From: a virus
DNA: 37,493 nucleotides
Direction: 5' to 3' (one strand)
Virus record (IMG/VR): IMGVR_UViG_3300046011_008343
Location: 1-37,493 of that record
Under the pieces are notes generated by a model. The model made no database searches and was not told the DNA's origin. It saw only the letters and a list, made by a program, of their open reading frames with translations. A program made the translations under genes and the position numbers. Below are positions 4,307 to 37,493 of the stretch, piece after piece. Position 1 is the stretch's first letter, and each line of letters starts with the position of its first letter.

Positions 4307-4576
4307 TTATTCACCTTTAGCTATTTTTCTAGCTGCTCTGAGGAAATTAAGTCGTCGAAGGTCATCTTTCGTGCGATTTACTAATTTGAGCCAACCACGA
4401 AGTTCACGACTTATATTAGTCCCAGTTGATGCTAACTTTTGACCTACTTTAACTGTATCTTTAGTTTCTTTGTAGTTGATTCCCTTTTTTTTCTTACGCT
4501 TAACTTTATCTCGACCGCGTTTGAAGTTAGCTGTTCTAATGACAGCACTCCTATTGATATCTGTCATTAGGAACAT
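4307..4576 (-). CDS. Small basic tag-A protein, possible neck or cargo protein
   Basis: 89 residues. The N-terminus M-F-L-M-T-D...T-A-N-F-K-R-G-R-D-K-V-K-R-K-K-K-K is the tag-A module also found on the putative cargo proteins (compare 25398-26366 and 9583-9936). Unlike those, it has no Gly-rich hydrophobic segment; the rest is a basic helical region with R-G-W-L-K-L-V-N-R-T and ends R-K-I-A-K-G-E. It starts directly after the stop of the 94-residue gene (TAATATG). It could be a structural protein that shares the tag for packaging, or a DNA-binding cargo protein. Confidence 0.6.
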   Translation of the reverse strand: MFLMTDINRSAVIRTANFKRGRDKVKRKKKKGINYKETKDTVKVGQKLASTGTNISRELRGWLKLVNRTKDDLRRLNFLRAARKIAKGE

Positions 4577-4577
4577 A

Positions 4578-4862
4578 TTACACCTTAGTTATTTCAGTTG
4601 TCTCAATTAAGTCACGTTGTTTAACTACTTGCTTCTTAACTCTCTCTGGACGATTAGCAGTACCAGCATCTATTTCATCTACGTTAATCATTTGATATGG
4701 TTCTAATGTAATCTCAACTGTTTCAAGTGATTTAACATAAGCACCATTATCTCTAATGTCTTCTGGTAACTGACCATAGAGATAAGGTAAGTTAGCTGGA
4801 TAGATGTTACCATTACGATCCATGTATTGTTGAATTAAAGTTACTTTAGTTGTTAAGTTCAT
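4578..4862 (-). CDS. Small structural-operon protein, unknown
   Basis: 94 residues, starting MNLTTKVTLIQQYMDRNGN. It is predicted to be beta-rich with a Y-Q-M-I-N-V-D-E strand and a basic end (V-K-K-Q-V-V-K-Q-R-D). It overlaps the upstream 117-residue gene by 4 bases and ends 2 bases before the next start. Location among connector genes suggests a minor head or neck component. I recognise no family. Confidence 0.5.
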   Translation of the reverse strand: MNLTTKVTLIQQYMDRNGNIYPANLPYLYGQLPEDIRDNGAYVKSLETVEITLEPYQMINVDEIDAGTANRPERVKKQVVKQRDLIETTEITKV

Positions 4863-11157: not shown

Positions 11158-12459
11158 TCAGTTTTCTATCTTAATGCACGTCCAGTTTTTGTGATGTTTA
11201 ATTTTACCCTTAATTACTTTAATTAAACAACTACCATCTAGACCATGTGATTCTTTAAGGTGAACTAATCCATAACAACATAACTGTTCATTAGTTATTA
11301 AGTTAGTTAATAGGTAACGTTTATTAACTACTTGTTGCCAACTCTTTTTAGCATCATTGATTAACTTATCTTCAGCTAACTTAGCAGCTTTATCAGCTAA
11401 TAACTTATCTCTTGTTTCCTCTGATTCATTAGCTCTAACACAACTCCAACCGTTAATTTTGCGACCATAACGAGGACTATTTGGATTCATTAATGGGTAC
11501 ACCGCTTTAGCATTTAATCCAGTTTCTTCAGTTAAATCTTCCATACCGTAACGACAGAAACTAACACCTTCAGGTGTTGTCAATATGAAGCGTTCAGCAT
11601 CTGGTAGATATTGTTTAATAATTGGTTCTGCATTAATATCTCTAACTTGATAACCGTTAATTAAATTAGCGTTATTAATGTGATGTGATATTGTCTTCTG
11701 ACATATATCTAATTTAAGTTGTTCTTTAATAGCATCAATACCATAAGAACAAAAACTGTAGTTATCTTTATTTAAACTAATACATTCGTATTTGTTAACG
11801 TAATCTAAATATGTTTTATCTACAGTTACATAATCATCATTAAGTGATTTAACTTTATAACCTTTATGATTAGTCATCTTATTACGAGCAACTTTAATTA
11901 AACTACTTACATCTAAATCTAGTTGTTGTAAGTGAGTTACACCGTAAGTACAATACTCAATTCCATCTGGTGTAGTTATTAAGTAACGACGATTTCTAAC
12001 TAAACTATTACCTCGTTTTAATTTAGCTTCAGAGGTATTGTTTTTTAATCTAGCAGAAATTAAAGTGCTACCTAACATAGAAGCTCGATAACTTTTATTC
12101 TGCCAACGACTCGTCATCGTTCTTTTTAAATACTCTTTACCTTCAGGTGTTAGAAAACAACCTTTACCACCATTTAATACGTTATAACCGTTAGGTGTTA
12201 AAGCATTATATTCTTTAATAAAATAAACTTCAGTTTTATCAATTTCTGACTGATCTGTTGTTTCTAAAGTTTTAATAATTTCAATTTTAAATTTATCTAC
12301 ACCATATTTCTTAATTGCTTTTGATAATAAACTTTTAGTTCCAACATAATTACCGGCTCTAATATGTTCTGACCAACGCTTTTCAATTGTCCTATTTGTT
12401 TGTCCAACATATTTTTTATCATTAATTGAGTTTGTCACCAAATAAATAAATTGTGGCAT
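11158..12459 (-). CDS. GIY-YIG homing endonuclease with four C-terminal repeats
   Basis: 433 residues. Residues about 4-100 are a GIY-YIG nuclease: I-Y-L-V-T-N and K-Y-V-G-Q-T replace the GIY and YIG strands, with Arg28 in K-R-W-S-E-H, and Glu in T-E-V-Y-F-I-K-E-Y as the metal ligand, then N-G-Y-N-V-L-N-G-G. The C-terminal two thirds hold four diverged repeats, each built like Y-L-I-T-T-P-D-G-x-x-Y-C-x-Y-G, a helix, and H-K-G-W/Y-x-C/V, likely DNA-binding modules related in style to NUMOD domains. It lies just downstream of a group I intron core in the capsid gene, so it either belongs to that intron or is a free-standing enzyme that mobilises it. Confidence 0.9.
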   Translation of the reverse strand: MPQFIYLVTNSINDKKYVGQTNRTIEKRWSEHIRAGNYVGTKSLLSKAIKKYGVDKFKIEIIKTLETTDQSEIDKTEVYFIKEYNALTPNGYNVLNGGKGCFLTPEGKEYLKRTMTSRWQNKSYRASMLGSTLISARLKNNTSEAKLKRGNSLVRNRRYLITTPDGIEYCTYGVTHLQQLDLDVSSLIKVARNKMTNHKGYKVKSLNDDYVTVDKTYLDYVNKYECISLNKDNYSFCSYGIDAIKEQLKLDICQKTISHHINNANLINGYQVRDINAEPIIKQYLPDAERFILTTPEGVSFCRYGMEDLTEETGLNAKAVYPLMNPNSPRYGRKINGWSCVRANESEETRDKLLADKAAKLAEDKLINDAKKSWQQVVNKRYLLTNLITNEQLCCYGLVHLKESHGLDGSCLIKVIKGKIKHHKNWTCIKIEN

Positions 12460-12622
12460 AATAATCTCATTTACGTCATAAGATCATTATACCACAACTT
12501 AAACTCGGTCTAGTTAGAAATAGGGAATTATTATCTAACTACTTGAGCATACAGATTCTTGGGAGAATAAATTACTGGTAAAACCATTGATCATTTTGTT
12601 ACCACGTAAGCTCTTTATCCTA

Positions 12623-12843
12623 CGTATCAGTAGTTTCATGTGTTATATCTACTGTTCAGACTATATCATCATCCACTTGGGATGTTCGGCACTCGTGGGT
12701 TTGTTACTGTCCGGTCTGGACTCGAAACCTAGTCGTTGAACCTTCAAAACCATTCCTGGTTAAGCTTGGCTGCTGATTGTCCACTTCTGGAGTTTCCAGC
12801 AATTCACCGAATTTTTACTACTTAATTACTTAAATAGGCGACT
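12623..12843 (-). ncRNA. Group I intron core at the 3' end of the capsid gene
   Basis: Minus-strand elements appear in the right order. AATTGCTGGAAACTCC (near 12805-12789) is P/P4. AATCAGCAGCCAAGC (12778-12764) is Q. GGTTCAACGACTAGG (12742-12728) is R. GATGATATAGTCTGAACAG (12670-12652) is S. P7 pairs perfectly (TTCA-AC-GACTA with TAGTC-TGAA). P9 is CAGTAG/CTACTG (12654-12628). For P1, exon TTTTTGT (12850-12844) pairs with GTAAAAA in the leader with a U-G pair at the cut, so the 5' splice site is most likely after 12844. The 3' site is uncertain: a G at 12623 would place TAG first in exon 2. The intron could also extend past the endonuclease gene. Confidence 0.88.
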
Positions 12844-13980
12844 ACAAAAAGTTTCAATCGCTTGCAAAACATCGTTGATAGGCACAGTTGTCTTCTCATA
12901 AACACGTACCATTACAGGAGATTCAGTACCTGTTAATACACCATCTTTAACAACTTTCTGTTCTTCAGGAGTACCAATAGCTTGCTCACCCATTCCATCC
13001 TTGAGGAATACGAAGCAATTCTCATTAAGGAATCGAGCATTACTGATGTAGCTATCAATAGTATTAGTATTACCAGAGTAGGTATTATCTACTTGATAGA
13101 ACTCATCATAATCCTTAATAGGAGGTAGGTTATTAGAAGCCATTACCTCTTGTAACATTGGGAAGCTAACAGAACCTACTTGTGCAAATCCAACTGATTG
13201 TCTAGCACGAGCAATAGTAGATGCTTGTTTCTGAAGATCACGCAATGCAGTATTACTCATTACGATGAGATCAGGCTTGTAACCATTAGTATTGACATAA
13301 GTAGTTACAGCATCTTCTAAGTTAGCGATACCATCAGCATTAGCGTAGTCAGTCCACTTGTTCAACTTAGGAGATGCAGTGTTACCAGTAGCAACAAGAG
13401 CATCAGGGAAGTGGTTATAACTAGCACCAGGACGACGGAAATCAATTGTCCATGCAACCTTAGTAATTGCATCAGATACACTCAATTGACCAGTCTGAAC
13501 AACTTGCCAAGCCATGCTAGTAAGTCTATCAGCATGAGATTGGACGATCCCCTCAATGTGACCATAGAGATACTTAACGAGCATATCGTTAGTACCCTTA
13601 ATGACGGAGTTATCAGTTAACTTCATGGTCATAACACTAGCGCGTTTATAGGCAGCTTCTTCCATTGCCTTACGCATCTGTTTCTGAGTTACTTCATCGA
13701 ATGAATAGCTATTACCTAACTTAGCTAGTTCACCGATTACTCGACGGAAACCACCATGAGAGATAACTGGAGGTTCAGCACCAGGAGCAATAAAGTTCGC
13801 AACTGGTGTGAGACGTTCACTTACGTATGCTAGGAACTCATCGTCCTCATACGTCTTAATAGGCATGAATTGATCAATAAGTTTAGTTCTCTGACGCAGA
13901 CGAGCAATAGTATCGTCTACTAGAGTTTCGGCAACTTTAGCTTGCAACTTATCGGTAAGAAAATTAGAAACTGAACCCAT
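12826..13980 (-). CDS. Major capsid protein (lambda gpE-like)
   Basis: 384 residues from MGSVSNFLTDKL; a 12-codon longer frame starts at 14016 but its codons cover the upstream repeat and T-run. The middle and end resemble the gpE capsid family: T-G-Q-L-S-V-S-D, I-D-F-R-R-P-G, N-K-W-T-D-Y-A-N-A-D-G, then ARFLNENCFVFLKDGMGEQA and M-V-R-V-Y-E-K-T-T-V-P. It follows decoration and scaffold genes in lambda order. If the group I intron splices as predicted, the last five encoded residues (S-R-L-F-K) are intron sequence and the mature product continues from E-T-F-C into exon 2. Confidence 0.85.
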   Translation of the reverse strand: MGSVSNFLTDKLQAKVAETLVDDTIARLRQRTKLIDQFMPIKTYEDDEFLAYVSERLTPVANFIAPGAEPPVISHGGFRRVIGELAKLGNSYSFDEVTQKQMRKAMEEAAYKRASVMTMKLTDNSVIKGTNDMLVKYLYGHIEGIVQSHADRLTSMAWQVVQTGQLSVSDAITKVAWTIDFRRPGASYNHFPDALVATGNTASPKLNKWTDYANADGIANLEDAVTTYVNTNGYKPDLIVMSNTALRDLQKQASTIARARQSVGFAQVGSVSFPMLQEVMASNNLPPIKDYDEFYQVDNTYSGNTNTIDSYISNARFLNENCFVFLKDGMGEQAIGTPEEQKVVKDGVLTGTESPVMVRVYEKTTVPINDVLQAIETFCSRLFK

Positions 13981-13981
13981 A

Positions 13982-13993
13982 GTAAGAAAAAAG
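13982..13993 (+). repeat. Dispersed 12-mer GTAAGAAAAAAG (copy at the capsid start)
   Basis: Exact copies on the plus strand start at 2083, 7728, 13982, 25441 and 29366. Exact minus-strand copies occupy 8779-8790 and 9535-9546. Near-copies with 11 matching bases are at 19148, 33433, 34701 (plus) and about 16117 and 31609 (minus), and shorter forms are at 17173 and 27726. Several are followed within 4-16 bases by TGGCG or GGCGCG. This copy sits directly upstream of the capsid ATG. Function unknown. Confidence 0.6.
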
Positions 13994-14012
13994 TAGGATA
14001 GTGGGCGCGATA

Positions 14013-14038
14013 ACATACATCATTAACATACGTCATTA
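14013..14038. repeat. 13-bp tandem repeat in the capsid leader
   Basis: AACATAC(A/G)TCATT occurs twice head to tail (14013-14025 and 14026-14038). On the minus strand it lies in the capsid leader and is framed by GGGCG and CGCCC, which could close a hairpin. Possible regulatory protein site or mRNA structure. Confidence 0.6.
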
Positions 14039-30139: not shown

Positions 30140-31048
30140 CTACTTTACCTTAGTTAACTTAACTGTAACATCATTAATAAACTCATCTGTGAATAGATGT
30201 GAGAACTTATCATCTTTAACTTGCACATCTAAATACCATTCAGAACTGCGCCACTTATTTTTCTTACCTTTAACATAATACTCCTGACATAGTTGTTGTG
30301 TAGTTAGGAAACTCACATCATTCATCCTATCTAGTAGTAACTGTGCTTCATTAGTTATTCCTAATGGTGATAGAAATATAAACTTAATAGGACGGTTGAA
30401 CTTATCAGCACATAACTGATAATAACCTTTATCTCCTATAGTCTTAGCTATGTCACTTGTAGTTATCTTATTTAACTTTAACTCATATACTATAACATTA
30501 CGTCCATTAGATTTAACGAAGTCAACTCTTCTAGTTTTAGTTGTTGCATTAATAGTATTGATTAGTGGATGTTCAATGTAGAATCTACCACCATCAGTAC
30601 ATAAATCAATCCAGTTCTTAATGCGGAATGCTAAATCAACTTCATTACGTGGCGCAATTGGAATCCCGCGTACATTGGCGGACTCTTGTTCTAGTAGTAA
30701 TTGATGTGACTGTTGATACTGCTGTTTTAGTTGATATAGAGTTAAGTCAACTTTAGCAGCAAATTCAGGTGATAACCATTGGGCTATTCGTATTGCAACT
30801 ATTTCATGTACCCAAGTTCCTTGTTCATAAGGATTACCACCTTTAATTGTTTGAACAAGTTCGTTACCCTTAATTCCGGTGATCGTGGAAACCTGTTCTA
30901 TATAAGACTTTGACCATTTGTTCTCGAAAAAGTGATCTATTCTTTTACCACCTGCTTTGCACATTGCAGTTGCATTCCAATAGTTATCTGAAGTGCGGCG
31001 ATAAATTGATTCGTTATTAAAATCAAAGGCTTTAACTATATTACTCAT
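30140..31048 (-). CDS. KilA-N protein with PD-(D/E)XK-like nuclease domain
   Basis: 302 residues. Residues about 8-108 are a KilA-N DNA-binding domain: Y-W-N-A-T-A-M-C-K-A-G-G-K, then G-N-P-Y-E-Q-G-T-W-V-H-E-I-V-A and W-L-S-P-E-F-A. Residues about 140-235 contain R-R-V-D-F-V (Asp176) and V-I-V-Y-E-L-K (Glu189, Lys191), the D...E-x-K spacing of PD-(D/E)XK nucleases, plus I-G-D-K-G-Y-Y-Q-L. Domain fusion suggests site-specific or regulated DNA cutting. It overlaps the second KilA-N gene by 8 bases. Confidence 0.75.
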   Translation of the reverse strand: MSNIVKAFDFNNESIYRRTSDNYWNATAMCKAGGKRIDHFFENKWSKSYIEQVSTITGIKGNELVQTIKGGNPYEQGTWVHEIVAIRIAQWLSPEFAAKVDLTLYQLKQQYQQSHQLLLEQESANVRGIPIAPRNEVDLAFRIKNWIDLCTDGGRFYIEHPLINTINATTKTRRVDFVKSNGRNVIVYELKLNKITTSDIAKTIGDKGYYQLCADKFNRPIKFIFLSPLGITNEAQLLLDRMNDVSFLTTQQLCQEYYVKGKKNKWRSSEWYLDVQVKDDKFSHLFTDEFINDVTVKLTKVK

Positions 31049-31595
31049 TAATTTTGTTCTCCATCATAAATTTAATAATTTGATTAATACCTTGAAATTC
31101 TTCACCTTGTTTAACTCTAATAATAGTACAGTTCAATTTAGCAATTAAATACTGTTCACGTTTAATATCGTTATCTTTAATATCTACGTTGTTATGATGT
31201 GTTTCGTCGTATTCAATAACTAGATTATATTTTTCATTATAAAAATCTAAATAATAATTATCTACTTTCTTTTGATATTCAAACACTAATAGGTCTTTAA
31301 ATGTAGATTCTAATAATAATTTAAATTCAGTTTCGTCTCTTTTAAACTCATATCTAATACTATGTACATTTAACCATTGTTGAAAGTACGGTAATAATTT
31401 GTTATGAATCCATGTTCCTTGTTTAGTAAAGTTACCACCTTGACGTTTAATTACACATTGTTTTAAAATTTCAGACTCGACTGCTTTAATAGCTTTTTTA
31501 GTTCCTGCGTTTTCTAACCAATGTTTAACCTCTTTACCATGCTCTTTAGCAAGTGCTGTAGCGTAAATATATTCATCTAAATAGACATCGCTCAT
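31041..31595 (-). CDS. KilA-N protein with DUF559/Vsr-like nuclease domain
   Basis: 184 residues. The N-terminal part is a shortened KilA-N domain (Y-A-T-A-L-A-K-E-H-G-K, then G-G-N-F-T-K-Q-G-T-W-I-H-N). The C-terminal part (from about 88) has Y-Y-L-D-F-Y-N (Asp117), L-V-I-E-Y-D-E-T-H-H (Glu128, Asp130), K-R-E-Q-Y-L-I-A-K-L-N-C and I-I-R-V-K-Q-G-E, the arrangement of Vsr/DUF559-type restriction-like nucleases. It is a distant partner of the next gene: same two-domain plan, different nuclease branch. Possible homing, recombination or host-DNA attack role. Confidence 0.72.
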   Translation of the reverse strand: MSDVYLDEYIYATALAKEHGKEVKHWLENAGTKKAIKAVESEILKQCVIKRQGGNFTKQGTWIHNKLLPYFQQWLNVHSIRYEFKRDETEFKLLLESTFKDLLVFEYQKKVDNYYLDFYNEKYNLVIEYDETHHNNVDIKDNDIKREQYLIAKLNCTIIRVKQGEEFQGINQIIKFMMENKINE

Positions 31596-36115: not shown

Positions 36116-36745
36116 TTATTTAGTATTGTTGTTATCAAGTTGCTTACGTATCTCAGCACGTCGTAACTCTAATTCTTCTTTAACTTTATCACTATCAGTT
36201 AGTAGTTTGTTTAAGTGAGCAAGTCTAGTTTTACTTACTTCCTTATTCTTACGCTCAGTTAATGTTGCTTCTTTAATCTCATCTAATAGTGATGCCGTGT
36301 TAGGCTCACCTAGAATACTTCTCACTGTAGTTACGCTATCTTTAATTGCTCCTATTATATCTTTGAGATCTCTTGGTTTAAGTGGTGGTAAATCATCATA
36401 ACCTCCTGTTACGTATGGTTCTAGAAACTCTTCCATTAGTTGATTAGTCTTCTCTAGTATTCTTAGATGTTGTGCATCGAACTTACCGCTTTCTCCCATC
36501 AAGTCATCTAGATTAATTTCGGTATTCTTGATGCGTAGTTTACGTTTGAATTGAGTACGTTGTAATAACCATTTGCCACTTTGACTTCTATTTCTTATTG
36601 TTTCTAGTTTGCAACCATATTGTTGACATAGTTGTTCATGAGTTGGAAATGTCTTACGTTTAAGTCCAGTACCTGCATCTCTCTCATCTCTACCTTGTAC
36701 GAACTCTCTTTCAATGATGTCCCAGGGGAATAGTTCATTTGCCAT
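36116..36745 (-). CDS. Terminase small subunit (putative)
   Basis: 209 residues. An N-terminal helix-turn-helix-like stretch (P-T-H-E-Q-L-C-Q-Q-Y-G-C-K-L-E-T-I-R-N-R) near 34-53 could read the packaging site, followed by a helical oligomerisation region and a charged C-terminus. It is the most upstream gene of the structural run, in front of a gene-free region, where small terminase genes usually lie. The call is positional as well as structural; a regulator of similar design is an alternative. Confidence 0.65.
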   Translation of the reverse strand: MANELFPWDIIEREFVQGRDERDAGTGLKRKTFPTHEQLCQQYGCKLETIRNRSQSGKWLLQRTQFKRKLRIKNTEINLDDLMGESGKFDAQHLRILEKTNQLMEEFLEPYVTGGYDDLPPLKPRDLKDIIGAIKDSVTTVRSILGEPNTASLLDEIKEATLTERKNKEVSKTRLAHLNKLLTDSDKVKEELELRRAEIRKQLDNNNTK

Positions 36746-37493
36746 GACGTAATTATGAGTTTTATTATTACCTTAATTCTACATTGTATTAGTGGGGGTA
36801 ATGGTATATATAGTTGGTATGTAGTTTTGAGTTAGTTGTGTAATGTATGATTTATGTATTTGTTTCACCCAAAATCCCACATTCCTCAACCTCTGAAACC
36901 CTTACTGTGTAAGGGTTCTAGCCTTCAAAACTATGTAGTAGAGTATGTAGTAGTCAGTGTATATTGAAGAAGTGGAGGAAACGACCTCACACACTGAACC
37001 ATGAAAATTAAATAATTCTCATTCTACGGAAAAGCAGGATTATTGTAATACTTGACAACTGTTTAAAGTGCAGTAGTGTGAGTTGATAATAAAAGTATGG
37101 TTAATTAATCATCATTATTATTAACAGTGATCACGTTAGGATAACAACCTACTCATAAGAGTAAATTAGTTTTATAACGTTAGTTCTCTATATTAGAACT
37201 GATAGTAGGTAACTAGAATTGCTTGGGATAACCAAGATTACAATAACTATTGCCGGGAAACATAGTAATTTAATTACTATGCTGTACTGAATAGTCAAGA
37301 GTCTAGTGAGGTAGCTATTGATAATATAGATGGTTTAAATACCCGAACTAATAAGCCCGATGTTAAGTTACTTCTAGCAAGAGTAAATTAGTGGATAACT
37401 ACTAAGACTTAATATCGGTTGTGTAAGACATAAATAAAAAGTAATGTTTGCAATTATCATAAAGTTGCTAGGTTTGTAAGGGTGACTAGTTTT
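36746..37493. other. Gene-free, hairpin-rich right end (candidate structured RNA or packaging/replication site)
   Basis: I found no credible ORF in 748 bases; the longest short frames lack codon bias. It contains AACCCTTAC/GTAAGGGTT (36897-36917), AGTTCT/AGAACT (37182-37200), CTTGG/CCAAG (37222-37236), a 9-bp palindrome CATAGTAAT/ATTACTATG (37261-37281) and CCGATGTTAAGT/ACTTAATATCGG (37357-37418). TTGACA at 37052 has no -10 box at a normal distance. Serial stems suggest a large noncoding RNA or a DNA site. It continues past the window edge. Confidence 0.55.
37157..37392 (+). repeat. Two direct copies of AAGAGTAAATTAGT
   Basis: An exact 14-base repeat is at 37157-37170 and 37379-37392, 222 bases apart, inside the gene-free hairpin-rich end. 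It may be paired sites for a protein or duplicated single-stranded elements of an RNA. Confidence 0.6.

Follow-up and report, generated by a model that had tools for sequence, protein, structure and literature searches.

To our knowledge, only a handful of large structured RNAs are known from phages, and their functions are open. The GOLLD RNA has a conserved 3' region and a less conserved 5' region, and both ROOL and GOLLD are often described in a tRNA-island setting (PMC12286853). Here, we analyze a gene-free region at positions 36746–37493 of a viral DNA of 37,493 bp, which constitutes a whole IMG/VR record and is referred to below as the window. An earlier note had proposed this region as a candidate large structured RNA that it could not match to a known class, and the latter point is borne out: the Rfam covariance search it called for yielded nothing credible at the locus at either gathering or permissive thresholds.

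Searches for known RNA families and homologs

Six records searched with the GOLLD model (RF02032) gave no match at E<=10, and the control genomes themselves gave only sub-threshold matches. The ROOL model (RF03087) likewise had no match at E<=10; its control was silent, so that this search is weak alone, and the permissive Rfam scans agree with it. Matches were also absent for HEARO (RF02033) and group-II-D1D4-1 (RF01998), with no group II intron in the Rfam scans either. The group I intron model (RF00028) found nothing at the locus, though Rfam does detect such an intron elsewhere in the window (12639–12859, minus strand). Within 11158–14016, that intron and the 3' end of the major capsid ORF overlap, and an ORF for a GIY-YIG homing endonuclease lies just downstream; a mobile intron probably interrupts the capsid gene. 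A RAGATH-1 hammerhead candidate in locus L002 was dismissed as sub-threshold (18.8 bits vs. a cut-off of 56.3).

DNA searches of phage records returned short chance matches only. A 20-mer match in L042 sits in unrelated coding sequence, and those weak matches in other contigs that were inspected are coding sequence as well. Two structural models, R1 and R2, recovered the known copies and no further homolog in the searched loci, Pam2, or PA-SR01, and a TerL search of genome contigs found no relative. The earlier note had also suggested looking for tRNAs past position 37493; none turned up, and tRNA genes are absent from the window and from ten related loci.

Genomic context of the gene-free region

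Tailed-phage genes recognized in the window include those for TerL, the major capsid protein, the head-maturation protease, and the tape-measure protein. Two adjacent genes at 30140–31595 are similar to KilA-N/BstA-related families. The capsid protein is closest to those of the Pseudanabaena cyanophages Pam2 and PA-SR01 (25.7% identity), hence our guess that the host is a freshwater cyanobacterium. The 111.6-kb contig of one relative begins shortly within the gene next to terS, and the genes at its opposite end read leftward. Since this contig begins just inside the locus, the genome is probably longer than 110 kb, and the right end of the window is probably an assembly break within the feature. 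The putative small-terminase gene terS (36116–36745, minus strand, 209 aa) owes its assignment to its position upstream of terL; its product has no PHROG or Pfam match above the cut-off and is weakly similar to a Methanobacterium virus Drs3 protein annotated as hypothetical (26.7%, E 1e-4).

The region is gene-free as claimed: no ORF of at least 50 aa overlaps 36746–37493, and no gap between main genes of the window is longer, the next one being half its length (366 nt, containing a group I intron). It is not, however, a right end, as only the contig stops at position 37493 and the gene-free region continues in relatives, where the complete intergenic region measures about 1,009–1,037 bp and is followed by a divergent operon. 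Judging from these relatives, we regard 36746–37493 as a cut-off part of an intergenic region of ~1.0 kb between two divergent operons.

The earlier note listed at least five stems and a direct repeat. The two perfect 9-bp hairpins, at 36897–36917 and 37261–37281, are indeed unusual (two stems of at least 8 bp vs. a shuffle mean of 0.35; two of at least 9 bp vs. 0.10), whereas the remaining local stems are short, and none is rare taken singly. The 14-base repeat AAGAGTAAATTAGT has exact copies at 37157 and 37379 but is absent from the other sequence version described below, and is therefore probably incidental. Over the region as a whole, folding exceeds that of shuffles only moderately (z −2.2 on the plus strand and −3.9 on the minus strand); hence, folding of the single sequence is not decisive, and comparison with relatives is.

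Two modules in the intergenic region

Sixteen loci coding for the terS-like protein form the set of relatives, and TerL is ~99.8% identical over most of them. The gene-free region consists of two modules, A and B. Module A is a near-invariant block of 245 nt beside terS (36746–36990, end approximate), with 96–100% identity in relatives and 87% in L015. It is present in all relatives that reach that far, is retained with or without module B after it, and is likely a divergent control region. Within it lies the first perfect hairpin, AACCCTTAC-TGT-GTAAGGGTT (36897–36917), whose loop in relatives reads either TGT or its reverse complement ACA.

Module B extends from about 37005 to the end of the contig and, in relatives, for another ~120 nt. 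Besides the window, ten loci have it, and it comes in two homologous versions that are ~80% identical across the alignable part. Given the ~99.8% TerL identity across most relatives, these versions look like recombining alleles. Three loci (L003, L004, and L015) keep module A and have other sequence in place of module B, which thus appears to be accessory: most close relatives have it and a few do without. In L015, this slot (4336–4756 of that locus) is occupied by a sequence that is unrelated to module B, folds strongly (z −4.5), and has a long-range stem closing it; it may be a further structured RNA.

Predicted fold and its conservation

On the plus strand, module B is predicted to comprise a variable 5' part (37005–37173), a multi-branched core (37174–37468), and an invariant 3' domain. 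The core arm (37174–37356), which shows compensatory changes and matches model R2, is built of nested helices at 37179–37186/37345–37352, 37189–37195/37322–37328, 37201–37206/37314–37319, 37212–37217/37302–37307, 37219–37221/37296–37298, and 37246–37250/37291–37295, together with a hairpin with a GATAA loop (37222–37236) and the second perfect 9-bp hairpin (37261–37281). The second domain (37357–37418), with compensatory changes and a match to model R1, is a 13-bp helix (37357–37369/37406–37418) enclosing two hairpins, one of which (37388–37405) has a GGATAAC-type loop. A small hairpin at 37450–37468 has double changes inside the window-type group, as seen in the alignment and core-pair comparison. 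Positions 37469–37493 form the start of the 3' domain, of which the L009 and L002 sequences show ~120 nt more, beyond the contig end. In alignment A1, the 3' columns 475–571 are invariant in 10/10 rows and the 5' columns 60–175 are poorly aligned.

Covariation was assessed on ten sequences, essentially representing two versions. RNAalifold predicted 131 pairs, 19 of them with a double change. The core contributes 73 pairs, with 100% of cells paired and 14 pairs changed on both sides; slid pairing, used as a control, gives 0–1 such pairs and 28–48% of paired cells. As the core structure came from the alignment itself, each version was also folded alone and the other version scored. In these single-version folds, the other version keeps 17/25 and 16/30 changed pairs, compared with null means of 9.2 and 9.5 (15/20,000 and 75/20,000, respectively), and L002 folded by itself reproduces the core arm. 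This test gives no signal of conserved pairing over the initial ~170 nt of module B, where kept pairs are no better than the null, and the 3' domain, being invariant, is uninformative. Some compensated helices pair arms that are 40–130 nt apart, and loops such as GATAA and several joints are invariant while stems vary.

The comparison of the two versions thus supports a multi-branched core at 37174–37468. Accordingly, the earlier proposal of a large structured RNA survives for this part, which shows compensatory changes between two natural versions and has no Rfam match. A single structure over all 748 bases does not: module A is a separate block, and 37005–37173 lacks conserved pairing. Most of the core is known in only two versions, and the double changes therefore represent few independent events.

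Compensatory changes may also have a mutational origin. Template switching can produce multi-base compensatory changes in hairpins, creating stems and matching their arms (PMC8794818). Loop inversion is a signature of this process, and four hairpins of the region have loops inverted among relatives (TGT/ACA, TGAC/GTCA, TTA/TAA, and T/A), consistent with its action here. The inversions are seen among near-identical genomes (hairpin 36897–36917 and loci L003, L004, L006, L007, and L009). For this reason, local hairpins weigh less as evidence, the reduction being smaller for helices that span 40–130 nt.

Wobble pairs and folding energy favor the plus strand as the likely RNA strand. On this strand, G-U cells in the core number 63 and A-C cells are absent, the G-U count being biased by the structure having been predicted on plus. 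A 121-nt domain of the window version, tested as evidence for the second domain, folds better than shuffles on the plus strand (z −3.3) but not on the minus strand (z −0.6). On the minus strand, the single-version test is significant starting from L009 and not from L002.

Possible functions

Taken as one, the explanations that involve a selected RNA structure, free-standing or leader, are in our opinion quite probable. Our main reading, with a probability of about 0.48, is that module B encodes an accessory, multi-domain, free-standing structured RNA acting through its fold. Such an RNA would be read rightward, on the plus strand, out of the divergent control region of module A, and would be about 600 nt long in all, consisting of the variable 5' part, the multi-branched core kept by compensatory changes, and the invariant 3' domain. 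We infer the transcription, the strand, and the free-standing state of the molecule. In this reading, the RNA would most likely be a scaffold or an assembly, comparable to the large phage RNAs GOLLD and ROOL, and would benefit the phage in some settings only.

Somewhat less likely, yet a possible reading, is that the same structure serves as a 5' leader to the operon read rightward, which it would control in cis through antitermination, RNA processing, or an effect on translation. A search for intrinsic terminators near the RNA, including the stretch between it and the genes, gave none, so a leader is possible; the operon begins just after the invariant 3' domain, and in L016 the purine-rich AATAGGAG precedes an ORF ~30 nt after that domain. 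The unrelated folding sequence in the same slot of L015 (z −4.5) also lies directly before a small ORF. On the other hand, the leader would have to measure about 600–900 nt, the small downstream ORFs differ among relatives, and L003 and L004 manage with a short and different leader.

The earlier note offered a pac region or a replication origin as alternatives. Action of the region as DNA, i.e., as a pac/cos packaging site or an origin with hairpins forming in DNA, seems improbable, even though it adjoins the putative terS where the operons diverge, module A is near-invariant throughout the relatives, and the loop inversions at four places suggest that palindromes take part in replication errors. 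A pac or cos site is needed by every genome of a lineage, whereas L003, L004, and L015 either lack module B or carry a replacement, so that it is not an essential site; its pairing, moreover, has multiple branches, and G-U wobbles occur on one strand. These alternatives are therefore disfavored for module B, while module A could be a packaging site or an origin.

It is just as improbable that the region is an AT-rich, palindrome-prone spacer with no selected structure, where template switching creates and matches stems (PMC8794818) and covariation is mutational: loop inversions are observed and the slots of L003, L004, and L015 hold hairpins too, but helices with arms 40–130 nt apart and other helices in between also contain changed pairs, 73/73 core pairs stay paired, and loops such as GATAA and several joints do not vary with the stems.

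Comparison with known systems

We tentatively suggest, leaning slightly against its being so, that module B encodes a large ornate phage RNA of a new class, with no sequence relationship to GOLLD or ROOL and placed in an exchangeable slot beside the terminase operon, the slots of relatives carrying different structured RNAs (the two module B versions and the L015 sequence). A further large structured RNA that some genomes of a phage population carry and others, with near-identical terminase genes, do not would offer a natural presence/absence comparison and would test whether multimeric cages are common among large phage RNAs.

PA-SR01 and Pam2 have gene-free regions between divergent operons (136922–137012 plus 1–1695 and 135637–137027, respectively) with blocks that are identical or replaced. 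Seen in the direction of the late operon, these regions of 1.4–1.8 kb precede terL by a few kb, like the locus studied here, and are mosaics of identical and unrelated blocks; there is, however, no similarity in sequence, structural models, or neighboring genes, and the analogy is only positional.

Unlike ROOL, an RNA with conserved pseudoknots and kissing loops, module B has neither a match to the ROOL covariance model nor a tRNA island. From GOLLD, which assembles into an RNA nanocage, it differs in the absence of a covariance-model match and of a nearby tRNA gene, and in size, as known GOLLD members are often longer than 800 nt, compared with about 600 nt for the predicted module B RNA. GOLLD too is phage-encoded, large, ornate, and of unknown function (PMC12286853), and the conserved 3' and variable 5' regions of module B in alignment A1 follow the same plan.
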